From a virus: a stretch of 35,857 nt of DNA. The notes under the pieces were generated by a model. The model did no database searches. It was not told where the DNA came from and saw only the letters and a program-made list of their open reading frames with translations. The position numbers were made by a program, and so were the translations under genes. Location of the stretch: IMG/VR virus record IMGVR_UViG_3300010151_000053, positions 1-35,857 of that record; one strand, written 5' to 3'. Position 1 is the stretch's first letter. Every line of letters starts with the position of its first letter. Positions 2,436 to 35,765 of this stretch are shown piece by piece.

Positions 2436-2477
2436 GTTGGAATCCTTTCGGGTGTTCCTTAAATATTAAGGATGTTG

Positions 2478-4371: not shown

Positions 4372-4385
4372 TACCTAACCCAACT

Positions 4386-4640
4386 TTAAGCTCGTTCGGG
4401 GGTGTGCCCAGCAGCACGAGCTTCTGCAAGCACCTTGTTCTCTCGCTCCCTCATCGTAAGATGCTGCTCATCTTTGGGCAGCATCGCACGCATGGTTTCC
4501 CCCCTAGCGATTGACACTGACTTCAATCTAAGGCGACGATCATACAATTCTTCAAGTTCCGTCATCGGAACGTCCCCCCTACGTTCCTTGACATACTCCA
4601 CAAATTCTTTGAAAGTTGCCCCGTTAGGGAGAACTGCCAC
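4386..4640 (-). CDS. Small helical hypothetical protein in packaging operon
   Basis: An 84-aa charged protein starting with GTG two bases after the stop of the preceding gene, so translation is probably re-initiated. It has no cysteine or membrane segment. The sequence (FKEFVEYVKERRGDVPMTELEELYDRRLRLKS) predicts two or three amphipathic helices. It is co-directional with portal and terminase. I do not recognise the family. A portal-assembly or packaging accessory is possible from position only. Confidence 0.65.
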   Translation of the reverse strand: MAVLPNGATFKEFVEYVKERRGDVPMTELEELYDRRLRLKSVSIARGETMRAMLPKDEQHLTMRERENKVLAEARAAGHTPERA

Positions 4641-4642
4641 TA

Positions 4643-4897
4643 TCAGCTATTCCGAACAGAACCGTTAGGCTGTTTGGCGGAAGGTTCTACCCGACCATCA
4701 GTACCATGCTGATTCCGAGGGGTTTCCCTAATCTTCATCGCAGAAGCCTTAACGCCAGGATGTGCGTTATTGGTACCTTCAGAGATTCGGGCAGGCTGTG
4801 AACCGCCAGGACGGGCAGGGCCGTTGTAAAGCTGATTTGTATTCAACTTTGGTTGGGCACCCATTCCTGAGGCATTGTACTTATTTGGTTTGGACAT
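4643..4897 (-). CDS. Small disordered hypothetical protein
   Basis: An 84-aa protein rich in Asn, Gly, Pro, Ser and Lys (SKPNKYNASGMGAQPKLNTNQLYNGPARPGG), predicted to be largely unstructured and basic. A clear ribosome site (AGGAG, seven to eight bases) precedes the ATG, and TGGGACA lies 41 bases upstream. It sits between the terminase nuclease gene and a second small gene before the portal. The function is unknown; low-complexity basic proteins in this position are sometimes minor head components, but nothing in the sequence proves it. Confidence 0.65.
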   Translation of the reverse strand: MSKPNKYNASGMGAQPKLNTNQLYNGPARPGGSQPARISEGTNNAHPGVKASAMKIRETPRNQHGTDGRVEPSAKQPNGSVRNS

Positions 4898-4932
4898 TAA
4901 ACGCTCCTAGCTAAAAGTCCTTACGTAAGAGT

Positions 4933-5598
4933 TCATACTGTCCCACGTGACGTGTGTACGCCAATACTATCCGTGGAAATATTATTCTTCGGTATTTGCC
5001 GATGCCACCAATCTAACGTAAACGTATCATCCACATTTTGAACATATTCGGGAATAAACGCATGTTTACGCATCTGATTAGCCAACGCCAACGACATAAC
5101 ACGATCATCATGTGGTGAACCTGACATCTGTCCGCGATCATTACGAGTAAAAGTACGCAATTCAGCGAACGTGTACTCATCATGCAAAATAAGCTCTTCA
5201 TTTTTTAAAGCTTGAGCCAACTCATCAATCATCAAAGGCTTAGAAGTACGAGTAGTCAACCAACCAAACTCCTGTGACATTCTCTGAGTGGACTGATTCA
5301 AACTCCGCCGACGATACAAATTAGGGTAACCCAACTGACGAAGCTGCGTAATGGTTGTCAACCCGTGGTTGTTTGCCTCAACGCAACACAAAGCATTCCC
5401 ATACCACAACCCAACACGATAAACCTCAGTCGCCAACTCGTCAGGAGGAATGCGACCATGCCAGATAGCTGCCTGCTCACCATTCTTGGCATCTATAACC
5501 TGAATACAAGAATAATCACCATGACCTAAACCCTCAGCGGTGTCCACCCCAAGGACATACCCACTCCATCGTTCTGGCTCGCTCCAAACGGTCAACAC
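4933..5598 (-). CDS. Large terminase, nuclease domain (separate gene)
   Basis: A 221-aa protein corresponding to the C-terminal RNase H-like nuclease of TerL. The acidic triad is visible: D19 in YVLGVDTAEG, E74 in CCVEANNHG, and D164/D165 in SPHDDRVMSLALA. This domain cuts concatemeric DNA at the start and end of packaging. It begins with GTG at 5598, overlaps the end of the ATPase gene by seven bases (GTGTTGA), and has GGAG five bases upstream, so it looks like a genuine separate start. The two reading frames differ by -1. No canonical X-XXY-YYZ slippery heptamer lies in register, so I do not favour frameshifting. A sequencing error in an otherwise single TerL gene remains possible. Confidence 0.85.
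   Translation of the reverse strand: MLTVWSEPERWSGYVLGVDTAEGLGHGDYSCIQVIDAKNGEQAAIWHGRIPPDELATEVYRVGLWYGNALCCVEANNHGLTTITQLRQLGYPNLYRRRSLNQSTQRMSQEFGWLTTRTSKPLMIDELAQALKNEELILHDEYTFAELRTFTRNDRGQMSGSPHDDRVMSLALANQMRKHAFIPEYVQNVDDTFTLDWWHRQIPKNNISTDSIGVHTSRGTV
4939..4945 (-). promoter_or_regulatory. TGGGACA motif upstream of 4897 gene
   Basis: GTGGGACA on the minus strand overlaps the last codons of the terminase nuclease gene and stands 41 bases before the next ATG. TAAGGA follows after 15 bases, within the palindrome CTTACGTAAG. The spacing and the TAAGGA match the copy before the scaffold gene almost exactly. Confidence 0.35.
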
Positions 5599-6479
5599 CT
5601 GAACTCCAAAACATCTTTTTGAATCTCGTGCATATACCCCGTTTTCCCAGCACTAATGAAATGACGCAAGTTATCGAGAACATCCAAATCGAACACAGGA
5701 TTTCCCGACCTAACAAACGCCTCCTCAGGGGTAGTCGGATACTCCTGTGCAAGCTGCCAAGGAAGCATTGAAGAAATTTTGCCCTCATACCATGACTCAT
5801 CGCGATCCTCCGAGGCAGACCAAGGGAAAAACATCGGAGAAAAATTGTTATTCCCTGTTGCCGCACCTGTCCAAAGGTTATGAAAAAAATTACCAGAGCC
5901 ATTAGCTGTACTTAGGCCAATGATCCGCCCTCCCACGTCAGCTACAGGCTCAATAGATGCCCACGCCTCCTCAGGGTTCGGGAGGAACGCCCACTCATCA
6001 ACCACAATAAGTGTCGCTGATTCACCACGGGCAGGATCCGAAGCAGAAGGCATCGACGTAATCTGGCTTCCGTTGTCAAACCCCATTCGTTGCTGATGCT
6101 CAACCAAAGACTTAGGTCCACGTTCGACCATCCATTCAGGCATGTGCTTATACCCGTACTTCGTTTTACGCAAAAGCAGCACCGACTCCCGCTCTGTCCG
6201 CGACAAATCAATAATATTTTGATCGTCCCTAAAAAACGCTAACCAAAATTGGTGTGCAGCAACCAAAGTCGTCCACCCAATCTGACGAGCCTTCAGGGTA
6301 AGCGAATACCTATTTGCGGACCATTCTTTAAGAGCTTTCGACTGAGCCTCACGTAAGACAAAAAGAACACGCCCATAACCAGGGTGAGCGATATGCCAAT
6401 AATTCTCAAGAAAATACTTTTCACTTTTCTGACACTTTCGCCACTCTGCCTCTTGCCGAAGCTCACTCAAACGACCCAC
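5592..6479 (-). CDS. Large terminase, ATPase domain (separate gene)
   Basis: A protein of about 295 aa with the packaging-motor ATPase motifs: a Walker A-like loop KARQIGWTT near 63-71, Walker B with catalytic glutamate TLIVVDEW near 156-163, and coupling motif GLSTANG near 188-194. A classical GKT is replaced by GWT, as in some other phage terminases. It ends (YPTTPEEAFVRSGNPVFD, then LEFRC) just where the nuclease domain would start in a normal TerL. I chose GTG 6479, which overlaps the upstream stop (TAGTG). A TTG at 6485 would add two residues and is about as likely. The product needs the nuclease protein encoded next to it for full terminase activity. Confidence 0.85.
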   Translation of the reverse strand: MGRLSELRQEAEWRKCQKSEKYFLENYWHIAHPGYGRVLFVLREAQSKALKEWSANRYSLTLKARQIGWTTLVAAHQFWLAFFRDDQNIIDLSRTERESVLLLRKTKYGYKHMPEWMVERGPKSLVEHQQRMGFDNGSQITSMPSASDPARGESATLIVVDEWAFLPNPEEAWASIEPVADVGGRIIGLSTANGSGNFFHNLWTGAATGNNNFSPMFFPWSASEDRDESWYEGKISSMLPWQLAQEYPTTPEEAFVRSGNPVFDLDVLDNLRHFISAGKTGYMHEIQKDVLEFRC

Positions 6480-6757
6480 TAGCAACCCATATCTTTCCTA
6501 AGACGCTCCCAAACAACCCACTGACCCTCGGTCCACGTATGATCAATCGTATTGTAAAGCTGGGAACACTGAGGGCCATACCCCATATTCGCAAGCAACG
6601 GAGGAGCCTCCTCCACCTCACTCCCACTAGACCACAGCACCATCACACCGCTGACAGCGGCAATCAGAGCCACCACAGCAGCACCAATCGCTGCAACAAT
6701 CTTTTTGATCGCCTTCGACCAAACATCCGCCGTTTCCGCAACATCCTCTATCGACAT
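6479..6757 (-). CDS. Small single-span membrane protein
   Basis: A 92-aa protein with one strong hydrophobic helix at about residues 18-44 (IVAAIGAAVVALIAAVSGVMVLW). A short N-terminal segment with acid and Lys residues precedes it, and a soluble C-terminal half with two Cys and many Trp follows (HTWTEGQWVVWERLRKDMGC). AGGGGG five bases before the ATG gives a good ribosome site. It lies between the small and large terminase genes and touches the ATPase start. It could be an inner-membrane packaging or lysis accessory, such as a second holin. It is not the obvious holin, which is at 20196. Function unknown. Confidence 0.6.
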   Translation of the reverse strand: MSIEDVAETADVWSKAIKKIVAAIGAAVVALIAAVSGVMVLWSSGSEVEEAPPLLANMGYGPQCSQLYNTIDHTWTEGQWVVWERLRKDMGC

Positions 6758-20195: not shown

Positions 20196-20366
20196 TTATG
20201 AGGCGACTTTCCCCTTAACGAAGGTCTTAGCAACGGAAATCGCGGCAGCCATGCCTGCGACAGCGGCAGCTTTAACGCTTGCCAAATCCGAAACAACGAA
20301 TACGCCAAGAAACGACTGCGCGAATGTCCAAGCAGCGCGTTCAAGTGTGTCTTTTATACCGTCCAC
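20196..20366 (-). CDS. Holin, r1t-like
   Basis: A 56-aa protein immediately after the endolysin gene. An N-terminal amphipathic helix (GIKDTLERAAWTFAQSFLGVFVV) and a second hydrophobic helix (VKAAAVAGMAAAISVAKTFVKGKV) with a basic end match the r1t-type holins typical of Gram-positive phages. It would form membrane lesions that start lysis. I chose GTG 20366, since GGAG lies six bases upstream. A TTG at 20378 would add four residues. It overlaps the endolysin gene by 13 bases. Confidence 0.75.
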   Translation of the reverse strand: MDGIKDTLERAAWTFAQSFLGVFVVSDLASVKAAAVAGMAAAISVAKTFVKGKVAS

Positions 20367-21100
20367 AAATATCTCCAAGTGACAGGGCCGACAACGCCAT
20401 CGACCTTAATAGGGTACATAGACTGGAACTCTTTCACGGCAGCCTTAGTGCCATTACCGAATATCCCGTCTACTGCTAGCTCTGCGTTGATGCGTTGGTT
20501 CAAACGTTTCTGTAAAGTAGATACATTTGTTCCCCGCGCACCCTTTTTTAAGGCTTTGCGGCGAAATTCCAACCCAATTGATTCCATTTCGTCCAACCTG
20601 AACTGCCAAGTATGGGCAGTAGGCTCATCCTCTTGTACAGGCATACCCGCTTTAATCCAAGTAGCCAGTTGATCGCCAGGGCAATATGTTGTGCCGAAAT
20701 CTCTATGACATTTGACCCACAGGTGGTCGCCATACTTTTCGCGCATTTCCCCTATGACGTTAAGGATTGCCTCCTTCCCGACTTCTGTCAGATCATCTCC
20801 AGAACCGATATAGGAAACAGAAACAGTATTGTGATTGTGGCTTTTCGTGGCAGCACCACGGTGCCAGCCACGGCCTTCAAACACTTCCCCTGTTTCTCCT
20901 GAAACAAGCCAATTGTACGCGATAGAGCGCCAGCCACGTGTTACCACGTGATATCTGTCGTGCTGTCTAACGCGGTCCCAAGGGGACTGAGAAGAACCTG
21001 TGGTGTGGTGAATAACCACGCCGACAGGGATGCGACGAAACTCACTCAAACCTTGGCCTGAGTTGAGAGCACCCCATTCTCCTCTACTGACGTATTCCAT
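20354..21100 (-). CDS. N-acetylmuramoyl-L-alanine amidase endolysin
   Basis: A 248-aa two-domain lysin. Residues 1-150 form an amidase_2/PGRP fold: zinc ligands in VIHHTTG (H31/H32) and CHRDFGTTYCPGD (H132, C140), plus the YNWLVSGETGEVFEGRGW segment. After a linker, residues 188-246 form a peptidoglycan-binding domain (LKKGARGTNVSTLQKRL; VDGIFGNGTKAAVKEFQ; VDGVVGPVTW). It cleaves the amide bond between MurNAc and the stem peptide. No signal peptide, so it depends on the adjacent holin. It starts 20 bases after the giant gene's stop, with a weak ribosome site. Confidence 0.95.
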   Translation of the reverse strand: MEYVSRGEWGALNSGQGLSEFRRIPVGVVIHHTTGSSQSPWDRVRQHDRYHVVTRGWRSIAYNWLVSGETGEVFEGRGWHRGAATKSHNHNTVSVSYIGSGDDLTEVGKEAILNVIGEMREKYGDHLWVKCHRDFGTTYCPGDQLATWIKAGMPVQEDEPTAHTWQFRLDEMESIGLEFRRKALKKGARGTNVSTLQKRLNQRINAELAVDGIFGNGTKAAVKEFQSMYPIKVDGVVGPVTWRYLWTV

Positions 21101-21120: not shown

Positions 21121-24100
21121 CTACCGTTTGCCAGCGTCGATACGCTCAAGCTCTCTAATGGCCTTAATTTCGTCACGCTTACGATACGTTCTGCCACGCA
21201 TTTCCATTTGCTGTTCATATTCAGTATTAGTTCTTACACCTAAACCAAAGACGAAACTTGCCCAAGTGGAAAGCCAACGTTCCTGATAGCGTTTTTCGTC
21301 AGGAAATAAGCGCCTTGCCTGACTAAACGGAGGCATCGACTGCGCCATAGCGTGTAAATGGGCATCCTGCATCGCCCACTCCCCATCGGGAGTGCGGCGA
21401 GCAAACCCCATACCTTCAAGCATTTTCATCCACCCTGGGATAGCTGTAAAAGCAGATGGAACATACTCGTAACGGCCATCAAAATTATATCCCTTCCAAA
21501 TATTTCTCTTGAAACCTGCTTCAAGGGGGGCTTTTATGAGAGGGGTAACCATCGAAAAAGCTGCACTCAAACCTTCTCCTACACGTTGCTCAGGAGTCAT
21601 ATCGCCCTTAAACATGGGATTAACCACGTCGTAGAACGTCCTCATTGGCAAATCAGGGGCAAAAAACAAGCTAGACCCTGCGCCACCCTGCCCAAATGCC
21701 TCAATATCGGTAGGCACACCACCCTGCCTGAGCAACCATTCAGGCAAAACCTGGCTTTCACGAGTACCAGGTTCCGCTTCCATCGCCTGCATACCCTGCA
21801 TGTAACGGTGGAAAGGCACAGGGTTAACCCCATATTGTTCTATTACGAGAGGTATAGCCCTACGCGTCCATGTGTAAAACGGAATAATTCGTTTTATTCC
21901 TTCGCGTTCAAACTTGGAGAGATCATCGTAATCAAAATGGAATTTATATATGTCATCGAACGCTTCAGTTAAAGTCGCACCATTCGCAAGACGATCAAAA
22001 CCAATCGTTCCACGCAAGATAGTTTCAGCCTTAACGTTTACTTTCCTCATCCCTATCAGAGCGAAGTTAGAGGAATTGAAGGGATTTAACTTTTTGAAAG
22101 CAACTTCACGACCCGCTACATTAATGGGCTGTCTCGTATCCCTAAACTCCATACCCGCCTGACCAGGACCAAACGCCCCAGCCTCATTCAACTCGCGCAC
22201 GTAAACTAAATGTTCCTGCGGAACATTACCCTGAGTTCTTATTAATTTATCTAAATCCCTTTGCGAAGCGCGCCCCACTTGAACTTCACGCTCCATGATC
22301 ACACGTTTATACGCTTTCATAAATTGCGAATAACGCACAGGGGAAACCCCAGCAAGCCAATTCATAAACATGCCACCGTACATGTTCCGCATTATGAAAC
22401 CAGGAGACATAATCATGTATCCCTTGAGCACGTTATGAGCCTTATCGTAATATTTCAAAAACCCACGAGAACCGCCTTTGCCCCTGTAGGTGTCAGCGGC
22501 AAGCATGGCTTCAACAACGTCTGGATGACCTTGGGAACGAACGCCGACAGGTCGCCAGCCAGCGCGGAAATTCTGATCCAAAACATCTGCCGTAGCAAAA
22601 TCCCTAATCATTGGATCTCCGAAACGATTTGTAAACATCAAATCGTTTGCGGTACCTAGAATTTCTTTGGCAGTAGAATATTCTTCAGAACCAAGTAAAT
22701 CAATTATTAAATTGATTTCCTTGGTATCTTGAATAGCTAATTCCCTGACTGACTTATCCAAACTATCAACCCATTCAATATAAGTTTTTAGTTCCGCAAG
22801 TTCACTATCCTGTAAAGCAGCAAGATCATTAACGCTTCTAATCGGTTGCCCCTGAGGGGTCTCACCAGCAATCCTTGTTCGTAAGCGCTGAACAATGTCA
22901 CGAGCCTCACGGAATTTAGTTATTCGTTCCCGTGCTTGCTCCAAAACAGTCGCAGCCGCATCGCGCCGCTCCTTGCTCGAACTCAACCACCCAGACTCAA
23001 GCATCTCTGGAAACAATTCAGGTTCCGTAATCCCTTGACTAATCAAATACTCATCAGGATGCTTAACAAATTGCGGGAACTTGTCATCGCGCCCCAAAGC
23101 AAGCAAACGCTCAATAGATTGCTCCATCTGCTGTTCAATCAAAAACATGCTTCCAGCGATTTCCCGTTCCTTATCTATCGCCGTTTCCAACAAACTAGGA
23201 ATCTGAACTGAATCCTTGACACTTGTCGGCGCATTCTCAAGCGCATGGCGCGCTTGTTTGTTGAAAAACGCCATATAACGTTCAGCATCAACCATGTTGC
23301 CCATAGTGACTTGATCCCACTCACCCGTAGGGGAAGCCCTCAACAAATCTCCGACTTGAGCATTTGCATGTATAGCCAACGGATTCGTGGGAACAACATT
23401 TACAAAATAACTTTCTAAAGGAGCTTCCACACGTCGTGGAGCGTTAAAGTTTCCAATTTGTTCGGGATTTGGATCACCTTCCCACCCGCGGAAACCCTGC
23501 GCTTCCCCTAAATTGAAATCGTCAACAAATGGCGTGAGAGCATAATTGTCAGTTTTATTTGCCCACGCAAAACCCGAATACCCATCCGCTGCCAACGACA
23601 AATGAAATTGCTCAAAAGCTTTAGAAATTAACGAATCCTCAGGGAAACCAGCCAAATCGCTCCTAATCAAAGCTTTTGACATTGTTTCCATAGAAGAAAA
23701 AGCTTCACGCATTTCCTCAGGCGAAGCACCTCGGGCCATCAACTGCCCTAAGAACTGTTTCGGCAGACCACGACCAGCTTTTTGCTGACGACGCGCTTGC
23801 GTAATAAAGTAATTATTGTAAATACCCCGCCAAACATTTAAAACATTTTCCGCAGCGCCCTCATGTGCAGTCATAACTGCTTCAGCCCAATTCTTATTGG
23901 TGGTCGCACTCGTGGCATTTAAGTATTTAGAAATTAAAGAATCTATGTCATCCATCTGAGTAGGCGTTACTTGCACCAAAGATCCCAAACCACCTGGCCG
24001 TTGGAAATGTTTCCCTCTCCACAAATAGTGATCTCGCCAACCTATGAACAACATTATCTCTTCAAAAACAGATCTAGTCATCCCAGGACGCTTAAACTTA

Positions 24101-27100
24101 TTTGCAATCTCGGGAGTGCGTTCCCAAACTTTTGCTAAACGCACAGAATTAACAGATGCACGCACAGGATCAAACCCCGATCCGAGAGCACCCACACGAC
24201 TATCAGCCGAAGCAAGAGTCCAAGGTTCACCATAGGTGCCAAATTTATGGCCGACACCCCATTCCTGTGCCCATTGATTACCAACAGCAGGATCCGCCCA
24301 AAGCTCCTTATGGATTTCCTTTAAAGTTAAATCGCGGACATCGCCAGTACCATCAACGGCAACCCAAGAATACTTTTCCCCACCAGCGGGAGGAACCTTA
24401 CTTCTGTCTACAAAACCACGCCTAAACAAAGCTTCATAAGCATCAACATTCACCGTATAGGCAGAATGATTACGACCCAAACCCCTTGTTGCTACCGTGT
24501 ATTTTCTTCCTGTCAGCGCAGGATCTGCGAAATTCAAAAGATCGTCAAATGTATTTCCATCAACACGATTAAGCATGTCTGTTGCTATTTCGCCCAGCGT
24601 TGTGATCCCTCGCAAATAAGGAGGAATCATTTTTGCTACTTCACCTTTGGCTTCTTGAGCTAAAACAGCTTGGTACTGAGTCCCTTCGGGGCGAACCATA
24701 GGGTCGCCCCTTCTGGACCCAGACAAAACTTCACCCGCCGCCCGTGTCTGCGTGTCAGGAGACATGCCGCGAACCCTTTGGTTTGCGGCAGCTTCCATCC
24801 ACGGATAAACGCCGTAAATACGCAAAGGGGTTTCCCCGCCCACATTCATCACATATCGGCCAAATTCGTCTGGATCAAGAGTCATAGGCCCAGGCGTAGA
24901 GGTTAAGGGGTAGCCAAGGGGGGCGTAACCGTCAACAGCAACCGTGTAATTAGCAGCAGAACCATCAACCCAAGGCACATCAGCGACACCGCCGACACCA
25001 CCCACGCGACCAAAAAACATTCCTGGTTGTTGGATATGTGGCGACTGAGCCGTCGCGCGCGTTTCAACACCATGTCCTCCCGTTTCTGTTCTGAGTAAAT
25101 CAAGCAAATTCTTTCGATCCATACCCTCAGTTATTTCTCCTGCGTTGGGACCGAGTAAACGAACAGCTTGAGCTTTTAGAAGCTCATCGCTGTTCGCTGC
25201 ATGGAATGGTAAACCAACAAGTTCCGCCATCGATTGTGTGCGATCCTCAAGCATCGAAGCCAAAGGAATACCATCACTGGAACGGAGAAAATCTGCTTGC
25301 CCTATGCCAGTGTGGTGAGCGATAAAGTTTTGCCAACTCCCATACTTTCCACGTATACCCAAAAGCCTGTCGATTTGGGCAATTATTTTTTCTTCAAGGT
25401 CGATATCGTTCAACTTAAGAGAACGACCGTAAGAATCCAATATGTCTTGCATTTGACGTGAGGGCACATAGCCCAAAGCGTCAAACAAAGACTTAAACCG
25501 TCCAGTGGAATCCAGATTCTCAGCAGCCGCCACAGCATCTTCTGTCGCGGCCTCAGCAACTTTTCGTGCTTGTGCAGCTTTAATGTTTTCAGCAGCAGCT
25601 TCAGCTTGTGTTGCAGCCGCTTTAGAAACAGCCGCAGGTGGCTTAAGAGGTTCACCCTCCCTAAATTCCCTGCGGACTATGTAGGAAATCCATTCAGGTT
25701 TCTTTCTGCCCTTGGGTTTCGGTTCCCCCCAACGAGCAGCAAGCTCTTCTCCCATTTCCCTTAATTCGTTTCTAGGAAGCTGTTCGAGTTCCTTGCGTCT
25801 AGCTTTTCTTGTAATTTGAGGTGCAGGAGCCGCTTCAGGGGTTTCTCTGCCAATGTTGGCGAGCCATTCCGTTGCATCTTGCCCTTGCCTCTGTATGTCA
25901 AATAGAGAAGTCTCATCTGCTTCAGGGGCTTTTGGTAAATCTTTTCGAACTTCTTCTATCGCCTCTAAGAAATCATCCGCAGTACGTTGATCACGTGTCG
26001 GTGTTTTCGATGGAACTGTTTCGCCTGCCTCGCCTCGGGCAAAAGCTGCGTCGATTTCTTCTCTTTCTAAAGCAGCCTTCTCAGTCTCAAGCCTCTTCCC
26101 CCCACCTTCGACATATTTCTTACTGGAAGCCCCCAGTTGCTTAGAACCAATAACCTCATCACTAAGCCCCAACATGGTTTCATCTTTAGCCTTGTACCCA
26201 CCTTTCGTGTATTGGGTATCAAAACCAGCGTTATATCTTGGCTGTCGTTGACCATGATGAACAGTTACGTTGGTGAAACCATGTTCTTTCAAGAAATCTT
26301 GGAACGCTCTGTCAGCGCCAGTTGGCTCATCACCGACATGTATCGGAGTATCTCTGTCCAAAGCAAGAATTTTTTGTTCAGCCTCTTCACCCAATTCTTT
26401 AAAGCCATGCTTGCCTGTAGCACCAGTCAACATGCGGGGTTTAAGACCGCCCTTGTAATGTACTCCTTCCTCAAGTTTGTCAACAATGCCAGTTGGGCCA
26501 GTTAATGTCTCCGCATCTAGGTCACCAACCGTCCCTTCTTCAATGTAAACTATAGGCTCGGGCCTTCCGTCGGGAGTTAAACCAAAATTATCGGGATCTT
26601 TGGCTTGTCGCGGTTCTACGATGCCTTTCCATTTTATGTAACCCTTTTCAATAGGGTCTCCATAAAAATCGGTCGAATGTACAGGCTTCATCGGTTCTTG
26701 AGGGGCTTTAGGTTTTCTTTGCGTGGGAGCTAGCTCTAAACTATCTACCTCATCCCAAATGTTTTCCATTAAGCGTTCCAAACGCCCAAAAGTATTGTCC
26801 AGGAGGTCATCAAGTTCGGCTTTAAGTTCCTCGCCAATGTCATCAAATTGCTGGAGCAAAGGCTCAAGAATGTCGTCAACAGCGTCATCCAAACTAGAAG
26901 TTTCGCCTTTTAAGCGTCCTGAGAACGAGCTTCTTCCATAAACAACAGTGATTTGGCCAGGAGGTCGTTGGTCAGGACCAAACCTGAAATCTTTCTTTAA
27001 AAACTCTTTCAAACCTCGAACTTGCACACCAGCTTCAATAACATGCTCCAAAGCTTTTTGTGTTTTTCCCTGTTGGTACACTCTGCGAGCTTCAGTAACT

Positions 27101-30100
27101 TCCAACCATACACTTCCCCGAGTTTTGTTCTTCGGATCCCGTTTACCTACAGGTCGCAACACTTCAAAGTGTGCCTCTAAAGCTTTCGTTTCACGTTTTA
27201 CTGCTGCAACTTCTTTAGAAGTTGGACCTTCTGGACCTCGGGCAGCAGGTTTACGTACAGGAACTTCTATGTCATCCGCATACGTCATAGGTTCAAGGGT
27301 GCGGTCTACAATCTTCGGCTCTGGAGCATCGAAAATAACCCCACCAATAGGGGCATCCGAAACAGCTTGCGGCGAAGGCGCATTGTTGAAACCGTTACCT
27401 TTAACAAAATTACGTACATTTTCGGCAGCTTCCCATAAAGCTGGAAACATCGGATTTTCTTGGGGTCCGAATGTGCCAAGTTGTTGTAATGGATCAATAG
27501 TTTCGCCAGCGGTACCACTCCAACCTTTCTGGGGGAGAAGAGGGGTACCACTCTCAGCGCCAGCAAAAGCATCAGCGTTACGCAACGCAGCATCCCTGAT
27601 GCCCTGCCAAATACCAAAAGCATCTCCCATATCTTCCGCAAAATCCTGAAAAACTTGGTCATATTCAGTGATCCAACTGCGGAAAACATTTATATCGTCA
27701 ATACCAGGATAATCAGGAGAACCAGGTTCAGGAAATAAAGCAGGAAGCTCTTCTTGGCGGTTCCTAATCGCTTCACTTATGTCAACATCCCTAGCACCCT
27801 GCGTAGCCTCAGAAGCCTTTCGCTGCTGTCGTTCAGCCCTCTGAGCAGCAATCTCTGCACGATTAGCTGGAGCCTCCGCAGCAGGAGGTGGCGGACGCTT
27901 CGAAGTAGTCTCCCCACCCTTACCCTTCAAGGATTCCCTATAATCTGCTGCTGCCTGCTCTTGAGCCGAAAGGGATTTTCTAGGAACTTTCTCAACAGGC
28001 TCAGGACTCAAAGCCGCCGTTGCCTCTGGAACTTCTTCCCTAAATTCCCTACGAATTATGTAAGAAATTAGCTGTGTTTTGTTTTTCTTTGCGCTGACAG
28101 GTCTTGCACCTTCAGCGTAAGCAAGTTTGTTAGCAATTGCCCTTAACTGTTTATTCGTTTTTTCTTCCAGTTGGGTGCGTCGTGCCTTCCTCGACAAAGA
28201 AGGTGTTTTTGCAATAGCTTCTTCGACTAATCCTTTAGCTTCAGCAGCCACGTCAGAGGGACGAACGCCTTCCGACGCAAGAACCTTAACTATCAATTGT
28301 CCTTTTTTAGTTTTCTGAGTACCCCAGTTGATTCCACGTTCTTCAAGAATTTTTCGCAACTGCTTCATCGTCATTGCCTCAAGAGCGTCTAAACGCTGTT
28401 GAGTGGCCTCAGGAAGCGCCAAGTCTTTTGGTGGAGGCTTTTCAGCATCTCGCGCCCGAGGTGTCGCATCAGGATCTTTCTTTAAACGCTCAAGATAATC
28501 GTTAGTGAATTTACGTAAACGTTTCCAAGCATCCTCAGCACTAAGGACTACTTCCTTACCCTTTTTATCGACATAAATAGTTTGCCTAAAAACAACTGTG
28601 ATTCTTTCGCTACGACCGCGACCTCGTTTAATAACACCTTTGCTCCTAGAGGTATCTACGCCAGCTTGCCCCGCCAATTCAGGATGAGCTTCCGCCACAG
28701 CGTTAGCCCACCTAACAAACCCTGGACCCTTTCGTTGAATCCTGTCTCCAGCTTTATAGCCTCCTGGCCTATTTTCCAATTTGTCCATAGACGCATTAAG
28801 CGATTCAATATCTTTGATAAAGGATCTTTGTTGCTTCGTGGGCTTTTTGGGTTTTAACTCTTCCTTTATGTCAAGCTTGCTGACATCCAACTCTGAAACT
28901 TCTTCTGTTGTCAGCGGTCTATCAGGAATCTCAGGAGCAGCCGCAGGCGGCGGAGTCGGATCTACGACTTCCGCAGGCGGCGGCGTTATGTCATCGAAAG
29001 AACCACCAAAACCAGAACGCGAATATGTACCATACCGAGTCAAACGGTAATTATCCATATTCCTTCCATAAGGATTAGGGTTTCCCGTAAGTAAATCAAA
29101 TACTAAAGATTCCATTAACTCGACATCGGAATTAACAGCGCGGACAATGCGAGCACTCGGTAAAAGTTCACCCGTAGCTGTATCGACCATAGCGTTAGGC
29201 TCCGCGCGCAAAGTTTGACGAGCACGCCATCTATCAGCAGACAACGCTCGCACATCGCCGTTGACATCCAATGTCAAAGTTCTGCCAGCCACACCACCTT
29301 CAGCTACTCCCTGATAAAAAACGTCAGACCAAGGTTCGATAAGTTCCAGTTCTCGCATAAGAATAGGAACACCTGTGTCGGCAAACTCTAAAGCAATGTT
29401 GTCAGTAGACAAACCCAACTCTCGGTGTATCGAACTACTAATAGCTGTATGAAACGCATTTCGATGCCCTTTCGGGTTTACTGGTGTCTGAACCGCATAG
29501 ATACGTCCTGTCGATAAAACATCAGAATATTGGTAAAACGTAGTTTTTAAACCGTCACGAGCAACGGATTGATTCATCCCAGCAACGTTTATCGGATCTC
29601 CCGCCCCATCAACCCGTATGCCGTATGCAGCTAAATCTTCTCGACTTAGTAACGTTCCAGCAGATTCTATTTCTTCTAAAGAAACACCCAATCGCATTCG
29701 TAGTCCAGAACCATTTTGGACAGAATCAATCATCCGATCACGGAACTGGAGTAAAGAAGCATATGTACCCAAGTCCATTTTTTCCGCTTGGGAAACCATT
29801 GGATTAGGAACAGACATTTCCAACTGTGCAATTGGTGATTCTTGTATTACGTCGTTAAGCCAGCCAGCACGTTGTTTCAACGCTTGACCATATTGCCCTG
29901 CTAGGACATCAATGTCGTCAACGTTTTTAATGCTAATTAGATTGTCTCCACCATAAACGGCAAAATGTAAGCGCAAAGCTTCTTTCAGGTCCATTTGGAG
30001 TTGGTTGGAAGCTGAAAGTTCAGCCCCAAATATATTGGGATTGCGGCGAAGAGCTAAACCAATACGCTCCTCAGGAGTCGCGTTATTGTAAGAAATAATT

Positions 30101-33100
30101 AAATCAGTAGCCTGATTCAACTGTTCCTGTGTAGGGGCCTTGTAACGCTGAATAGGAGGAGGCAAATCGCGAGTACCTACAAGCGAAGTATATTTAGCAA
30201 CCATTTGATCCAACTGGCCTATGTAGTCCGAGGCCAAACCATCTATCATTTCTAACCCAGAGAAAATCGCAGACGAAGCCCCGTTGTAAACACCTTCGTT
30301 TTTGGGCAAAAACTGATCTACGTCTTGTAGCATCATCCATTCACCCATGTGATGTTCATCTACCGCCGTAGCAACCTGATTCATCCAAGCCCTGCCCTGA
30401 ACAGCAGTAATAGCTTTTCCTTCTGGATCAAAAATGAGTTCAGGATCATCCATCAAACCCTTGGGTACATTCCCCTCAGCGGTTCCCCACGGATCACCAG
30501 CAGGAGGAGCCTCAATGTCAGGATTAGCCAGTTTCCACTCATCCAGTTTTCTTTGGAATTGATCCGCATACCAATCAGCAAATCTTTTAGCGGTGTCAAC
30601 GTCACCAAATCCACGAGACAAAGCTTTTTCAATAAAAAGCTTTGTACCAATCGCTGCGGTAGCACGTTCCCAAAGACCATAAAAAATACCATCTTGGTAT
30701 CCAGTGGCCTGAGACTGCCCTAATTCGAGAGCAGTAATTTCTTGTTCTAAAAATTGTCGTTCTTGTTGTAACTGAGCTAAACGCCGAGTCTCATCATCGG
30801 CCAAAGCTTGTCTTAACGCTTGATCTTCTAGGTCTTGGATTTGGCGAGCAACACCAAAAATGCGTTCTTCGATTTCCAATCTTTGAGCAACCGCACCATC
30901 GTACAGAGCCACACGTTCCATGTATAACGCCTGTAACTCTTCGAAAATTTCTAGCTCTGCCTCATACTCATCGATAGCGTGGTGCCAAACCTCTTCCGCA
31001 TACTTGAATCGTTCAACATTCATTTTGTCTGAAGCGATATGGCCTGTATTGGCCTCCATGAATGCGCGACCCACATTTCGTTTAGCGTGCGCAACTTTGC
31101 GGCTGTAAGACCGCATTGTTGCTGCCGCAGTCGCCATTTGGACAGTTGGAATATCGACAGAAGTTGTCCAACTAGCCAACAACGTTCCTTCGTTAATCAA
31201 AAGTTTTTCAGTATGAACATCCCCAATACGTTTAGCTAAAGCAGTCACGTATTGGGGCAGAACAGTAAAAGCGTTTTGGTTAAACAATTCGTGCGTGAGA
31301 TTGTTGCGACGCATAATCTCAGCAATCTGCTCCGCTACGCCAGGTACAACTTCCCCAGTCGTTTCATCAATCGATCCTGGCTTGAGAAGCTTTTCGTACA
31401 TGAACTCATCTGTGGGAGCATTGTCACTATTTCTGAAAGCTTTCGTTATCGCACGTTTTTTAGAATCAGCGAGTGCATCCCAGCCACCCTCACCGAACTC
31501 GTCAGCGAAATTCTTTCTAGCCCAATCCATTAGAGCTATTTGGTATTCTTCTTCGTCTATGTAGCCGCGGCCTCGCTCAAAACCCGCCTTGGTGAAAGAA
31601 CCACCAGAATAGGCACTATCAGGATTATCGAAATTTCTTCCAATAATTTCCATTGCCTCATCGGTGGGTTGGTGCGGAACGTAATTGGGACGTTCCACAA
31701 TAAATTCCATGCCTGCCAGTTCGTGAGCACGTTCACGCATGTATCTCCAAAAGTTACGTGCTTGCTTCAAAAGGTCATGGCTACCACCCAAGATTTCTAA
31801 AGCTTTAGCGTTACCACGAGCCGTAGCAGGATATTCCAAAGCTTCGAAAATCAGATCCCCTAATTGTTCTCTCGAAAGGCCTGCCAAATCATCAGGAACT
31901 AGCGATACTGACGTATCAACGAACTTGGCAGCTTCAGCCGTCAACTCTGCTTGAGCTTTACGGGTCATTGCGTTACCACGAGCCATAGAACGAACAACGG
32001 CTTTAGCACTCATAACAGTCGAAGGATTATTCGAAGTCCGAATAAGATCTCTTACCTTTGACCCTTCAGAACCAAACAACTGACCTGTTTTGCGGAATGG
32101 GGTACCCATAACGCCAAACACAAGTTTTCTCATGCTTTGAGGCAAAAATCTAATTGCATCATCAACTAACTTGTTACTGCCACTAATCAAAGCAATCCCA
32201 ATAGGCTTAGTCATCTCATCCCAGCCACGAGGATCACGAATACGCCTAGTCAGCTTATTTACAACGGGTCTAGCAATAGGGCCAGTACCAGGAATTTTTA
32301 AACCAATCTGGTTTTTGACCATTCCCCTCGGAGTTCGCATTCTACGTGCCGCATCATCACCCACATCGAACAAAGGTTTAAACACCTTTTCAGGTAATCC
32401 ACGAGCAGCACGATCAGCGGCATACTGGCCTGCGTCTAAAATATTTTGATTAACCCCCAACCGTTGCATGGCTTTAGCAACAGTATTCAACTCCTCACTC
32501 GTGATGGACGTACGGCCTGATTTGATATGTTTCGCAGACGCACGCGCTATGTCTTGAATTTCGCGGACAGCGGTATCACCAATTTGGACACTCAAAGGGC
32601 GACCACCCATATTGAAGAAACGGCCTCCTTCCACCAGTGATGACGGTGGTTGCCAGCGACCCAGATTCGCTGGCAATCCACCAACAGCTTCGTCGGCCAA
32701 CTGTGCTGCTGGCGTATTCAGCATTCTGTTAATTAAACTTCGAGTATCGGCAACTGTGTTCCCGATGGCTGCTTTTGAAACTTGGTCACCGAGTATGTCG
32801 GCGGTTTCTTTAAAGGCGGCACGTGTGGCATCGTCAATGGAGTGACCAGCAGCCCGAGCAGCAGCTTCTGCTGCGTCGGCTGCTTCTCTGCTAACGATTT
32901 TGGCAATCAGATTTCTTGTGGCCCCAGTGTTTTTCAAAACATTCGCAACTTGAGCAGTTTTACCTAAACCAAACGTGATCCAAGCAAGAGGATCCAAAGC
33001 GATGTCAAATGGGGCAGCAGCCAAGAAGGAAGCATTAACATCCCATTTCCATCCGACCCCAGGAATTGTTAATTGCGTTAAATGAGAATCTTGGAGCCAA

Positions 33101-33549
33101 TCCTCATCGTGTAAGAGTTTGCCGAAGGTGTAATAGTCATCCCAGCCACCGATTTGATTAGCCCATTGCTTAAGTGAAACGTCAGACCAATCACCAACCC
33201 CAGCAAGCGCTTGCGTAAAATCGATAACTTCTTTTGCCGTTGAAGAAACGATAGAAAGCGGTTTCCCCAACAATCCCAAAGCGGGGCCAGCTAAACCACC
33301 CAGAGAGCTAAGGAAACCACCACCATCGTCTTGAAGTCCAGTTGTTCTCTGAGAATGGGGGACAAAGAACTGACCGTAATTTTGGGAAAGCGTTCTTGGC
33401 TTCATCGTGGGAGGTGTGTACCTCTTGGATGGGGCAGGCTTCCCAGTCAAAATCTGGTGCAAGGTGTTTAGTTTTGCTTGATTGCCTTCTGTTGGTTTGA
33501 TTCCAGAAAGAGCAGTTGCCGCTTCCGCCCGATCAAACTGAACAGCCAT
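21121..33549 (-). CDS. Giant 4,142-aa polyvalent/internal virion-type protein
   Basis: One uninterrupted frame filling a third of the window. I see: an N-terminal part with hydrophobic helices (about 85-190); a helical coiled-coil stretch (about 845-945); a Pro-rich linker near 1520-1550; SAP/HeH-like helical segments near 1720-1745, 1787-1842 and 2577-2637, the last two sharing ISYI-x-RREFRE; a SLOG-like Rossmann segment at about 2370-2490 (RMLTGATGKHG, IHVGDEPTGADRAF, PRYNAG, ETMLGLSDEVIG); and a C-terminal region (FHFDYDDLSKFERE, IIPFYTWTRRAIPL, about 3700-3900) resembling LPD38 of polyvalent phage proteins. Such proteins are packed in the head or ejected with DNA to protect or condition infection. 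No methylase or helicase motif found. A GGAG-containing site precedes the ATG. Confidence 0.8.
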   Translation of the reverse strand: MAVQFDRAEAATALSGIKPTEGNQAKLNTLHQILTGKPAPSKRYTPPTMKPRTLSQNYGQFFVPHSQRTTGLQDDGGGFLSSLGGLAGPALGLLGKPLSIVSSTAKEVIDFTQALAGVGDWSDVSLKQWANQIGGWDDYYTFGKLLHDEDWLQDSHLTQLTIPGVGWKWDVNASFLAAAPFDIALDPLAWITFGLGKTAQVANVLKNTGATRNLIAKIVSREAADAAEAAARAAGHSIDDATRAAFKETADILGDQVSKAAIGNTVADTRSLINRMLNTPAAQLADEAVGGLPANLGRWQPPSSLVEGGRFFNMGGRPLSVQIGDTAVREIQDIARASAKHIKSGRTSITSEELNTVAKAMQRLGVNQNILDAGQYAADRAARGLPEKVFKPLFDVGDDAARRMRTPRGMVKNQIGLKIPGTGPIARPVVNKLTRRIRDPRGWDEMTKPIGIALISGSNKLVDDAIRFLPQSMRKLVFGVMGTPFRKTGQLFGSEGSKVRDLIRTSNNPSTVMSAKAVVRSMARGNAMTRKAQAELTAEAAKFVDTSVSLVPDDLAGLSREQLGDLIFEALEYPATARGNAKALEILGGSHDLLKQARNFWRYMRERAHELAGMEFIVERPNYVPHQPTDEAMEIIGRNFDNPDSAYSGGSFTKAGFERGRGYIDEEEYQIALMDWARKNFADEFGEGGWDALADSKKRAITKAFRNSDNAPTDEFMYEKLLKPGSIDETTGEVVPGVAEQIAEIMRRNNLTHELFNQNAFTVLPQYVTALAKRIGDVHTEKLLINEGTLLASWTTSVDIPTVQMATAAATMRSYSRKVAHAKRNVGRAFMEANTGHIASDKMNVERFKYAEEVWHHAIDEYEAELEIFEELQALYMERVALYDGAVAQRLEIEERIFGVARQIQDLEDQALRQALADDETRRLAQLQQERQFLEQEITALELGQSQATGYQDGIFYGLWERATAAIGTKLFIEKALSRGFGDVDTAKRFADWYADQFQRKLDEWKLANPDIEAPPAGDPWGTAEGNVPKGLMDDPELIFDPEGKAITAVQGRAWMNQVATAVDEHHMGEWMMLQDVDQFLPKNEGVYNGASSAIFSGLEMIDGLASDYIGQLDQMVAKYTSLVGTRDLPPPIQRYKAPTQEQLNQATDLIISYNNATPEERIGLALRRNPNIFGAELSASNQLQMDLKEALRLHFAVYGGDNLISIKNVDDIDVLAGQYGQALKQRAGWLNDVIQESPIAQLEMSVPNPMVSQAEKMDLGTYASLLQFRDRMIDSVQNGSGLRMRLGVSLEEIESAGTLLSREDLAAYGIRVDGAGDPINVAGMNQSVARDGLKTTFYQYSDVLSTGRIYAVQTPVNPKGHRNAFHTAISSSIHRELGLSTDNIALEFADTGVPILMRELELIEPWSDVFYQGVAEGGVAGRTLTLDVNGDVRALSADRWRARQTLRAEPNAMVDTATGELLPSARIVRAVNSDVELMESLVFDLLTGNPNPYGRNMDNYRLTRYGTYSRSGFGGSFDDITPPPAEVVDPTPPPAAAPEIPDRPLTTEEVSELDVSKLDIKEELKPKKPTKQQRSFIKDIESLNASMDKLENRPGGYKAGDRIQRKGPGFVRWANAVAEAHPELAGQAGVDTSRSKGVIKRGRGRSERITVVFRQTIYVDKKGKEVVLSAEDAWKRLRKFTNDYLERLKKDPDATPRARDAEKPPPKDLALPEATQQRLDALEAMTMKQLRKILEERGINWGTQKTKKGQLIVKVLASEGVRPSDVAAEAKGLVEEAIAKTPSLSRKARRTQLEEKTNKQLRAIANKLAYAEGARPVSAKKNKTQLISYIIRREFREEVPEATAALSPEPVEKVPRKSLSAQEQAAADYRESLKGKGGETTSKRPPPPAAEAPANRAEIAAQRAERQQRKASEATQGARDVDISEAIRNRQEELPALFPEPGSPDYPGIDDINVFRSWITEYDQVFQDFAEDMGDAFGIWQGIRDAALRNADAFAGAESGTPLLPQKGWSGTAGETIDPLQQLGTFGPQENPMFPALWEAAENVRNFVKGNGFNNAPSPQAVSDAPIGGVIFDAPEPKIVDRTLEPMTYADDIEVPVRKPAARGPEGPTSKEVAAVKRETKALEAHFEVLRPVGKRDPKNKTRGSVWLEVTEARRVYQQGKTQKALEHVIEAGVQVRGLKEFLKKDFRFGPDQRPPGQITVVYGRSSFSGRLKGETSSLDDAVDDILEPLLQQFDDIGEELKAELDDLLDNTFGRLERLMENIWDEVDSLELAPTQRKPKAPQEPMKPVHSTDFYGDPIEKGYIKWKGIVEPRQAKDPDNFGLTPDGRPEPIVYIEEGTVGDLDAETLTGPTGIVDKLEEGVHYKGGLKPRMLTGATGKHGFKELGEEAEQKILALDRDTPIHVGDEPTGADRAFQDFLKEHGFTNVTVHHGQRQPRYNAGFDTQYTKGGYKAKDETMLGLSDEVIGSKQLGASSKKYVEGGGKRLETEKAALEREEIDAAFARGEAGETVPSKTPTRDQRTADDFLEAIEEVRKDLPKAPEADETSLFDIQRQGQDATEWLANIGRETPEAAPAPQITRKARRKELEQLPRNELREMGEELAARWGEPKPKGRKKPEWISYIVRREFREGEPLKPPAAVSKAAATQAEAAAENIKAAQARKVAEAATEDAVAAAENLDSTGRFKSLFDALGYVPSRQMQDILDSYGRSLKLNDIDLEEKIIAQIDRLLGIRGKYGSWQNFIAHHTGIGQADFLRSSDGIPLASMLEDRTQSMAELVGLPFHAANSDELLKAQAVRLLGPNAGEITEGMDRKNLLDLLRTETGGHGVETRATAQSPHIQQPGMFFGRVGGVGGVADVPWVDGSAANYTVAVDGYAPLGYPLTSTPGPMTLDPDEFGRYVMNVGGETPLRIYGVYPWMEAAANQRVRGMSPDTQTRAAGEVLSGSRRGDPMVRPEGTQYQAVLAQEAKGEVAKMIPPYLRGITTLGEIATDMLNRVDGNTFDDLLNFADPALTGRKYTVATRGLGRNHSAYTVNVDAYEALFRRGFVDRSKVPPAGGEKYSWVAVDGTGDVRDLTLKEIHKELWADPAVGNQWAQEWGVGHKFGTYGEPWTLASADSRVGALGSGFDPVRASVNSVRLAKVWERTPEIANKFKRPGMTRSVFEEIMLFIGWRDHYLWRGKHFQRPGGLGSLVQVTPTQMDDIDSLISKYLNATSATTNKNWAEAVMTAHEGAAENVLNVWRGIYNNYFITQARRQQKAGRGLPKQFLGQLMARGASPEEMREAFSSMETMSKALIRSDLAGFPEDSLISKAFEQFHLSLAADGYSGFAWANKTDNYALTPFVDDFNLGEAQGFRGWEGDPNPEQIGNFNAPRRVEAPLESYFVNVVPTNPLAIHANAQVGDLLRASPTGEWDQVTMGNMVDAERYMAFFNKQARHALENAPTSVKDSVQIPSLLETAIDKEREIAGSMFLIEQQMEQSIERLLALGRDDKFPQFVKHPDEYLISQGITEPELFPEMLESGWLSSSKERRDAAATVLEQARERITKFREARDIVQRLRTRIAGETPQGQPIRSVNDLAALQDSELAELKTYIEWVDSLDKSVRELAIQDTKEINLIIDLLGSEEYSTAKEILGTANDLMFTNRFGDPMIRDFATADVLDQNFRAGWRPVGVRSQGHPDVVEAMLAADTYRGKGGSRGFLKYYDKAHNVLKGYMIMSPGFIMRNMYGGMFMNWLAGVSPVRYSQFMKAYKRVIMEREVQVGRASQRDLDKLIRTQGNVPQEHLVYVRELNEAGAFGPGQAGMEFRDTRQPINVAGREVAFKKLNPFNSSNFALIGMRKVNVKAETILRGTIGFDRLANGATLTEAFDDIYKFHFDYDDLSKFEREGIKRIIPFYTWTRRAIPLVIEQYGVNPVPFHRYMQGMQAMEAEPGTRESQVLPEWLLRQGGVPTDIEAFGQGGAGSSLFFAPDLPMRTFYDVVNPMFKGDMTPEQRVGEGLSAAFSMVTPLIKAPLEAGFKRNIWKGYNFDGRYEYVPSAFTAIPGWMKMLEGMGFARRTPDGEWAMQDAHLHAMAQSMPPFSQARRLFPDEKRYQERWLSTWASFVFGLGVRTNTEYEQQMEMRGRTYRKRDEIKAIRELERIDAGKR

Positions 33550-33551: not shown

Positions 33552-35765
33552 CTACCCAACTCCAGCAGGTGGTCCATTACTGATAAAAGACGTTAAACCT
33601 CTAGTGGAATTCGAAATTCCCCAAAGACCAAATGGATGTTCTGCGAAATCTTCATAGTTCGCTTCACCATCCAAACGCGGCAACGCAGTAAACGCAGTAT
33701 TAGCCAGCGACTTTATTTCACGCATGTCAGCCGTTTCATATCTCTGCATCGTAGAATCCAAGCCCCAATACGGTTCCAGCATCGCATCCATCGTATCTTG
33801 AGCAGATTGTGCAGCAGCAGCATCCCCAGCTTCATTAGCCGTATCCATCAAACGCATTTGCTCTGCGATGGCAACAGCCATGCCAGCTATCGCGGGATCA
33901 GTACCCAAGTCATCAACAAGCCAACGGAAAGTGCCAGGGCGGACGCTAGCTGCACGCTTAATATCATCAAGATTGTTTTGAACATTCGAGAAAAGAGTGT
34001 TCCTTTGAGTGTCGGTCATCGCAGCAACTTGCTCGGGAGTATAGGCAGTCATAGAAGAAAGCAACTGATTTTGTGCAGCAATCTGTTTGGCTTTCTCCCC
34101 CGCTGTCAACTTCGTTGTCTCTCGGGAAGCTTCCGCTTCCTCTTTCGTGAAATCGAATGTCTTGTTCCATTGAGACACCGATGTTTTAAGCGTATCTTCC
34201 TTCTGTTGAAAATCTGCTTCCCAGCGACGCTTTGACTCAGCAGCCGCAGTAGCCGCAGTTTTCTCGGCAGCCAAACGAATATCCAAACGCTCAGCCTTAT
34301 CTTCGGCACGCTGAACCGTATCAATAGAATTTTGCAACTTAGCCATACCAAGACTCACCAAAGCAGAAGCCTCAGCGAAATCTCGGTTATTGTTAAATGC
34401 TTCTATACGTTGAGCTTCTTGCAGCACCAACGCATTTTCTTGCTCTGTCAGCGAAGCCAACGTTTGTAGCAATGATGCTTGAGCTTCATTTTCAAGACGG
34501 AATTGTTCGTCCCCCAAAGCACTCTGCGCATCAGCCATCAATAATGCGGGCGCAGCCAAACGCTGCGCCGCAGCAATATTAGCTATAGCTTCTATGCGAC
34601 TCATCGAACCTTCATGCCCAGCAGCAATCGAATCCGTAAGCCCAGTCACCATCGCTGCGACTTCTTCAAACTCGGATGTCAATTGAGGACCAAGAGTTAG
34701 CCGACCAGCAGCGATCTGCGCTTCTGTGTCGGCCTGCATGGTAGCCATACGCTGTTTAGCGGTCGCAGACAGTTGAGTTTGAATGGCTTTACGATTGGTG
34801 TTTTGTTTCTCTAACGCTGCCTCGGAAGTCTCTTTAATAGATTTGATTTGTGTTTTGCGACGGTCAGCAGAATCTTTGATTTGCTGTACTAGATCAGCGG
34901 TCATTAAGCGAGCGTTGACTTTTCCGTCAGCTACAAGTTGATTGATTTTGTCAGTTAAATCTTGTGTAGTTATATTGAATGCAGAGTTGATGTCGGCAGC
35001 GGCATCCCCGAAAGGATCAGGGGGCGCAGGCATATCGCAACTAGTACCGTTCCAAGTACCACCTGCATCCGCACATATTTGTTCTGGTGTTTTTGTCGGG
35101 TCACCTGTCGGCATGTCGCAACTAGTGCCATTCCAAGTACCACCTGCATCTGCACACTGTTGTTCTGGTGTTTTTACGGGGTCTGTAGGTGTGTTGTATT
35201 TCTTTAAAGCGTCAGCAGCTTCTTTACTTATCGCATCCAAATCAATGTTTAATGCATTAAAACCTTGACCTGTTTCAAAAGGATTATTCGCTCCCACAGT
35301 TCGAGTGTTTGGCATTATCCCAGTGTCTAAACCACTGATATCAGACAGAAAATTCTGTGTAGTGTTTTCCTTGATCGCCTGAAGAGTAGGTGACGTAGAC
35401 GGCGGACCAGGTGCAGAACCTGGACCAGTTTGCTGGATGTATGGTAGCCCTGAGTCACGCCCAGCCTTACGTCGCAAAGCCTCAGCATTTTCTCTAGCAA
35501 TAGCTGCGGGACTTCCAACAATGCTTGTTGAAATAGGACCAGGACCAGCAGGAGGTTTAGGGGGTATAACACCAATAGGACGGGGATGTAAATAAGGGTT
35601 ATAGGAAGTAGCAGCTTCTGAAATGCCAGGATCAACAGCGTAACGCATAGGACCATATGCTTCGGCACTAGCACTTATAGGCCCCATGTAATTAGGAGAA
35701 TTTTGATTACCAAGCATGTCTTTTGTTAAGGCATCAACTAAAGCTTCTTTTTCTTCTGGTGTCAT
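33552..35765 (-). CDS. 737-aa coiled-coil internal virion/tail-type protein
   Basis: This protein ends three bases before the giant gene. Residues 1-190 are Pro/Gly/Ser rich and disordered. Two 27-residue repeats at 195-248 each carry a CADAGGTWNGTSC disulfide-type motif. Residues about 270-560 are long, Ala/Glu/Gln-rich helices (SLLQTLASLTEQENALVLQEAQRIEA; TAATAAAESKRRWEADFQQKEDTLK). The last 180 residues form a mixed domain (GTFRWLVDDLGTDPAIAGMAVAIAEQM). The design suits an internal core or ejection protein paired with the giant protein. The start overlaps the preceding gene as ATGA. I do not recognise a named family. Confidence 0.65.
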   Translation of the reverse strand: MTPEEKEALVDALTKDMLGNQNSPNYMGPISASAEAYGPMRYAVDPGISEAATSYNPYLHPRPIGVIPPKPPAGPGPISTSIVGSPAAIARENAEALRRKAGRDSGLPYIQQTGPGSAPGPPSTSPTLQAIKENTTQNFLSDISGLDTGIMPNTRTVGANNPFETGQGFNALNIDLDAISKEAADALKKYNTPTDPVKTPEQQCADAGGTWNGTSCDMPTGDPTKTPEQICADAGGTWNGTSCDMPAPPDPFGDAAADINSAFNITTQDLTDKINQLVADGKVNARLMTADLVQQIKDSADRRKTQIKSIKETSEAALEKQNTNRKAIQTQLSATAKQRMATMQADTEAQIAAGRLTLGPQLTSEFEEVAAMVTGLTDSIAAGHEGSMSRIEAIANIAAAQRLAAPALLMADAQSALGDEQFRLENEAQASLLQTLASLTEQENALVLQEAQRIEAFNNNRDFAEASALVSLGMAKLQNSIDTVQRAEDKAERLDIRLAAEKTAATAAAESKRRWEADFQQKEDTLKTSVSQWNKTFDFTKEEAEASRETTKLTAGEKAKQIAAQNQLLSSMTAYTPEQVAAMTDTQRNTLFSNVQNNLDDIKRAASVRPGTFRWLVDDLGTDPAIAGMAVAIAEQMRLMDTANEAGDAAAAQSAQDTMDAMLEPYWGLDSTMQRYETADMREIKSLANTAFTALPRLDGEANYEDFAEHPFGLWGISNSTRGLTSFISNGPPAGVG
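35022..35183 (-). repeat. Two tandem 81-base repeats in the 737-aa gene
   Basis: Copies at 35103-35183 and 35022-35102 each encode 27 residues with K-T-P-E-Q-x-C-A-D-A-G-G-T-W-N-G-T-S-C-D-M-P. DNA identity is high along most of the unit and the protein is nearly identical, so the duplication is recent or is kept alike by recombination. The paired Cys residues in each unit suggest one small disulfide loop per repeat. Confidence 0.8.

Follow-up and report, generated by a model that had tools for sequence, protein, structure and literature searches.

Can a nucleotide-binding domain of the SLOG type be carried into a host cell inside a very large phage protein, and what would it do there? The question is raised by a viral record of 35,857 nucleotides (IMG/VR IMGVR_UViG_3300010151_000053), analyzed over its whole length and hereafter called the window, in which a preliminary description made from sequence alone had proposed a SLOG-like domain within a 4,142-aa protein. 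The gene for this giant protein and its surroundings are laid out as follows:

21121..33549, minus strand: giant ORF of 4,142 aa, a putative podovirus ejection or polyvalent-type virion protein, judged by its position in a virion gene block just 5' of the endolysin, where podovirus proteins of the ejection type also lie
33552..35765, minus strand: 737-aa protein, the upstream neighbor of the giant ORF across a 2 bp gap
20354..21100, minus strand: endolysin (Amidase_2 and PG_binding_1), the gene after the giant ORF
742..6485, minus strand: head module with terminase (in two ORFs), portal, scaffold and the major head protein, from PHROG matches; profile-identified head genes reach from 7389 to 742
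29626..33255, minus strand: conserved N-terminal block of the giant, residues 99-1308
25483..29625, minus strand: variable insertion zone of the giant, residues 1309-2689, delimited by alignment of the flanking blocks
21124..22761, minus strand: conserved C-terminal block of the giant, residues 3597-4142, with FDYxDLSxFER...IIPFYTWT

The 737-aa protein, the giant and the endolysin (35765-20354) share the strand of the profile-identified head genes, and if the record is circularly permuted, the head genes and the giant region form one late block; a search for end repeats of the record found none. Judged by head protein, the closest relative with a name is podovirus MW202803 (37.9%); its gene order is the same, and immediately ahead of its cell-wall enzyme it encodes a 1,312-aa homologue of the C-terminal block of the giant. 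This gene order, and the homology of that block to a podovirus protein at the equivalent site, make the giant a likely virion protein, as the preliminary description had supposed: a multi-module podovirus protein, probably packaged and delivered into the cell along with the DNA. A Pfam scan detected no catalogued polyvalent domain in it. Elsewhere in the window, the terminase large subunit is split into two overlapping ORFs (4933-6485, minus strand), both with terminase profile matches, which points to a frameshift, either programmed or due to sequencing error.

Scanned alone, the proposed SLOG segment matched nothing in Pfam, PHROGs, NCBIfam or PDB sequences, and a PF10686 search of its own genome returned no match for it; since the segment is invisible to stock libraries, purpose-built profiles were needed. 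A tblastn search of plasmids uncovered a single clear relative, encoded by a Cyanobacterium aponinum plasmid gene of 122 aa (35.5% identity over 92 residues, E 1e-6). A further plasmid search, with the consensus of a SLOG-like family, served only as a lead, the members then being retrieved and read. A profile of ten plasmid and phage relatives, two of which (the cyanobacterial gene and a Lak phage gene) were found via the window segment and the other eight independently, returned the giant at 30.6 bits (E 6e-9) among the 426 ORFs of the window, with the next ORF at E 0.27; of 200 shuffled versions of the giant, none scored above 2.3 bits, as against 25-31 bits for the real protein. The giant was also recovered by a profile of 80 bacterial genes from a separate genome collection (E 3e-7) and by one built from 29 phage proteins, in many cases fusions (E 1e-8). 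One alignment, A1, was too diverse for scanning collections. Two candidate matches were rejected: that to locus L001 is short, falls in a high-GC phage contig without relation to the window and is put down to chance, and that to Phage Phass-1 (E 2e-3) involves a frame resembling a DnaQ-type exonuclease. The annotated Phass-1 gene in question (L002, 2746-3690) lies opposite this open DnaQ-like frame and may have been annotated on the wrong strand.

Profile-profile comparison connects the segment to an unmodelled SLOG subfamily for which we coin the label KD. With hhalign, 24 bacterial KD members matched the segment at 97.6% (E 4e-12, 35% identity over 84 columns), whereas the neighboring segment just upstream, used as a control, gave 0.2%. 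The KD profile in turn matched five YAcAr-type phage proteins at 98.9% (E 4e-17), and the three of these that were scanned have Pfam YAcAr matches at E about 1e-13 to 1e-15. The window segment compared directly with a small YAcAr profile gave a weak 7.9%, so it appears to be a remote SLOG reached via the intermediate KD subfamily; in a tree it sits on a very long branch (2.96) with no supported sister. We conclude with high confidence that a divergent Rossmannoid domain of the SLOG (YspA-like) type spans residues about 2370-2470. The fold first proposed for this stretch is borne out by sequence profiles, profile-profile comparison and a structure model, and the profile searches that had been suggested as a check were negative with stock libraries and positive with purpose-built SLOG-subfamily profiles (E 3e-7 to 6e-9).

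Bacterial KD genes have a characteristic neighborhood. In 59 of 79 testable loci a profile search placed the SLOG gene directly downstream of a ComF-type PRTase gene, often overlapping it; this count replaces the 9 of 79 given by a strict motif count. The two-gene unit is widespread on chromosomes and plasmids (bacterial loci L102-L181; plasmid loci L016 and L019-L022). Within the window no PRTase match was found at E 1. The KD members that were scanned fall below Pfam gathering thresholds, and standard annotation therefore misses the subfamily both in giant phage proteins and in the PRTase-SLOG gene pair.

Translation of 21121-33549 on the minus strand confirmed the location first given for the segment and the five peptides read there, which lie in frame and in order over residues 2372-2468: RMLTGATGKHG (from 2372), IHVGDEPTGADRAF, NVTVHHG, PRYNAG and ETMLGLSDEVIG (ending at 2468). 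The elements of the segment are:

26146..26442, minus strand: SLOG core, residues 2370-2468, running b1-a1-b2-a2-b3-b4-a3 to the start of b5 (profiles, hhalign, model confidence mostly 84-97)
26311..26334, minus strand: GDEPTGAD loop, residues 2406-2413, with the invariant G, D, G and D kept
26224..26238, minus strand: RYNAG, residues 2438-2442, counterpart of the RNNxG motif of the KD subfamily
26173..26187, minus strand: KDETM, residues 2455-2459, counterpart of the YspA RN..M element
26050..26145, minus strand: residues 2469-2500, the site of IWDGxSxGT..N in relatives, where the motif is lost and both models are mostly disordered

The glycine-rich first loop and the GxxxGxD loop are present (G2379, G2406-D2407, G2411, D2413). 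The earlier assignment of PRYNAG to the R-N element of YspA did not hold, as this peptide matches the subfamily RNNxG and the YspA R-N..M corresponds to K2455-D2456..M2459. Up to Gly2468, 13 of 14 near-invariant subfamily positions are kept (G2379, L2386, G2406, D2407, G2411, D2413, Q2417, R2438, G2442, D2456, M2459, D2464 and G2468), in an alignment that contains the window row and so favors the window segment somewhat; the single change is A2463 to Ser. The first loop reads GKH in place of GSR, the SR being replaced by KH. Beyond Gly2468 the motif IWDGxSxGT..N is unrecognizable, the aligned positions 2471-2482 being different; W-D-G-x-S-x-G-T..N is a conserved feature of the YAcAr and KD sets analyzed and does not define the SLOG superfamily as a whole. 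Its loss argues against a fully canonical active site. From its sequence, GASSKKYV in the window may be a remnant of this segment, which takes the form GAxATRxN in much of the phage fusion group. A frameshift was rejected as the origin of the missing motif, the other two frames just downstream being without WDGKSxGT by eye, and a recent foreign origin of the stretch was rejected on composition, its GC and GC3 being the same as those of the gene.

AlphaFold models of the segment, built from alignments of 54 and 65 sequences, have a confident core of alternating strands and helices, with block means of 84-97 over most of residues 2382-2461; residues after about 2471 are mostly of very low confidence. 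Foldseek matches among viral models (BFVD) were a marseillevirus protein of 105 aa, at E 1.1e-5 with a target TM of 0.79, and, at E 7e-4, a portion of a viral protein 851 aa long. Against the PDB, the shorter model had no match at E 0.001 or better, so that the proposed Foldseek check was positive for viral models and without a match at this threshold for experimental ones. Among the most probable PDB matches, all above E 0.001, were a molybdenum-cofactor carrier, TM1055 and TRPM8, which we take to be SLOG-fold proteins, and also serine racemase; an earlier PDB list, obtained with a 176-aa model, includes DprA.

The FDYxDLSxFER..IIPFYTWT block, or an adjoining part of the C-terminal block, occurs in 84 IMG/VR loci, 31 of which also show the N-terminal block. 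Where both blocks flanking the middle align well, the distance between them is 1,382-1,653 aa in the window giant and 379-786 aa in homologues, making its variable zone about 600-1,200 aa longer. The same insert had been expected to be sought in homologous giants; SLOG was found in none of the 84 loci, many of them partial, and, in a search run without a positive control, in none of 26 whole records. On these sequences its absence from homologues appears moderately secure, and no second copy of the insert is known. The variable internal domains of the giant are seen as length variation of the zone and a SLOG domain in one lineage only. Three further motifs lie in the same zone:

28279..28383, minus strand: Rho_N/SAP-like motif 1, residues 1723-1757, Pfam Rho_N at 26.9 bits (cut-off 24.9) in a 1,267-aa piece and at 20.3 bits, under the cut-off, in the whole-protein scan
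28012..28203, minus strand: SAP-like motif 2, residues 1783-1846, by alignment with motifs 1 and 3
25630..25815, minus strand: SAP-like motif 3, residues 2579-2640, by alignment

The middle zones of three homologues (L006, L008 and L014) contain, by eye, kinase-like motifs such as LLGNHDVMG...VRLDNGASFF, for which two scanned pieces gave no Pfam match.

SLOG domains of the same subfamily are fused to other domains elsewhere among viruses. The KD-type subfamily occupies at least 79 loci in IMG/VR, a number of which encode larger proteins. Seven of these larger proteins were scanned: a DUF7211 tag occurs in four, and GNAT (L246, L241, L225) or Gln_amidase (L222) in four. The following members of the L220-L259 group carry DUF7211, GNAT or glutamine-deamidase domains:

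L246, 2536-4857: SLOG fusion protein
L241, 5794-6942: SLOG fusion protein
L225, 944-1972: SLOG fusion protein
L222, 3801-6533: SLOG fusion protein

The fusion genes sampled have terminase and portal (L241), terminase (L244), or tail and minor-head genes (L248) nearby. With many SLOG fusions in viral contigs, the arrangement is recurrent and not unique; we know of no report of these fusions. A further viral contig encodes a SLOG-DUF4326 fusion (L182:5980-6705), a combination described in a jumbo-phage survey. Viral SLOG domains have been called 'typically standalone' in a 2022 survey of NAD/ADPr systems in viruses (PMC9503650), which makes SLOG in virion-type fusion proteins a testable addition, and the word SLOG is missing from the text of the 2017 polyvalent-protein paper (PMC5512222). 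The initial statement that no phage polyvalent protein with this module had been described agrees with both papers, but has to be set against the recurrence of SLOG fusions in viral contigs.

What might the domain do? We tentatively favor a virion-borne nucleotide-ligand binding module, an explanation that as a whole we rate somewhat short of even. The SLOG domain, seated in the variable insertion zone, would be packaged in the virion as part of the giant and injected with the DNA; it would still bind a nucleotide-type ligand via its glycine-rich loop, GDxxTGAD and the R..N..G..KD residues, and might act early in infection on a signal or metabolite derived from a nucleotide, as its binder or sponge or else as a hydrolase of reduced activity. 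Granted SLOG identity and a virion protein, a ligand-binding role is a reasonable proposal, if not quite an even prospect, and the loss of the last motif makes binding likelier than catalysis. Counted against this explanation are the missing IWDGxSxGT..N segment, the presence of serine racemase among the more probable PDB matches, the KH of the first loop, the low model confidence after about residue 2471, the very long branch, the weak direct YAcAr comparison, the lack of a PDB match at E 0.001 and the lack of a known second copy. Several of the same observations would suit a decayed SLOG relic, captured with other cargo and now a folded spacer in a giant structural protein after losing its C-terminal ligand-binding segment: IWDGxSxGT..N and the SR of the first loop are gone, the C-terminal part is disordered in the model, the branch is very long, and the domain is absent from 84 of 84 sampled homologous loci. 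Retention of 13 of 14 near-invariant residues to Gly2468 is more than expected of a freely drifting domain, even though the alignment with the window row favors the window, and we regard a relic as the main and a serious rival, though on the unlikely side.

The three SAP/Rho_N-like motifs allow another role, in which a DprA-like use of the SLOG domain would help to grip entering DNA during ejection. The Rho_N match, the pair of similar motifs that share its insertion zone, the weak matches of relatives to DprA and the presence of DprA in the first Foldseek list are consistent with this; that the DprA match is weak, and that PRTase genes are the commonest neighbors of the bacterial relatives, leaves such a helper quite improbable. 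A Gly/Asp-rich linker mimicking SLOG motifs by chance would account for the empty single-sequence scans of Pfam, PHROGs, NCBIfam and PDB, but three profiles (E 3e-7 to 6e-9), the controls by shuffling and by neighboring segment, and a confidently modelled folded core speak for a real domain; chance is largely refuted by these controls and is very improbable.

If the nucleotide-ligand binding module is the correct reading, its timing would matter. To our knowledge, the known anti-CBASS and anti-Thoeris proteins are all made after the onset of infection, and a particle-borne nucleotide-ligand domain could act before the signal accumulates. A broader scenario, which we consider unlikely, is that KD-type SLOG is a recurrent uncatalogued cargo of phage virion effectors, independently acquired by podoviruses (in the present giant) and DUF7211 phages and delivered with the genome to neutralize a nucleotide-type defense signal before phage gene expression. 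That the window SLOG has a role against immune signals is a hypothesis. Virion-packaged multidomain effectors and viral SLOG domains have been proposed to counter nucleotide signals (PMC5512222, PMC9503650, PMC7824862), and the binding or destruction of a defense nucleotide suggested for this segment at the outset had already been put forward for viral SLOG domains as a whole (PMC9503650).

Among known systems, ThsA SLOG (Thoeris) and LOG enzymes would share the superfamily-level fold with the window segment but have no direct sequence match to it, and the LOG motif PGGxGTxxE is absent from residues 2340-2515 by inspection. Phage SLOG proteins of Pfam YAcAr and PHROG 289 belong to the same superfamily and have the GxxxGAD loop and RN..M element, but unlike KD proteins they are remote from the window segment (hhalign 7.9%). 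The label 'GTP-binding domain' given to PHROG 289 is misleading, as its members L024, L025 and L027 match SLOG YAcAr at E about 1e-14. One of these genes, Cellulophaga phage phi17:2 gp037 (L027:1899-2258), is flanked on both sides by structural-protein genes, of which two are very large. Other annotations also pass over a SLOG domain: it starts a Pseudoalteromonas phage PY6 protein annotated as DNA polymerase (L028:2001-4336), and on Xanthomonas plasmid pXAM48 (L016:2992-3837) it is fused to an HI1420-type addiction-module antidote (PF21716) annotated as antidote only.

Bacterial KD SLOG proteins, such as Cyanobacterium aponinum WP_015221294.1, have G in the first loop, GDxxGxD..Q, RxNxG, KD..M and (A/S)D in the same order as the window; they are mostly stand-alone and PRTase-linked and keep IWDGxSxGT..N, whereas the window SLOG is an insert without PRTase that has lost the motif. 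Phage polyvalent effectors (PMC5512222) have catalogued polyvalent domains, none of which was detected in the giant, and resemble it in being very large, in having a variable zone between conserved ends and in their predicted injection. The DUF7211-SLOG proteins, with or without GNAT or Gln_amidase, differ in having a short DUF7211 tag and a length of about 200-900 aa, in coming from other virus groups and in retaining a C-terminal motif, often GAxATRxN; like the window giant, they are multi-domain phage proteins with the same SLOG subfamily, many of them with an RYxA-type R motif.
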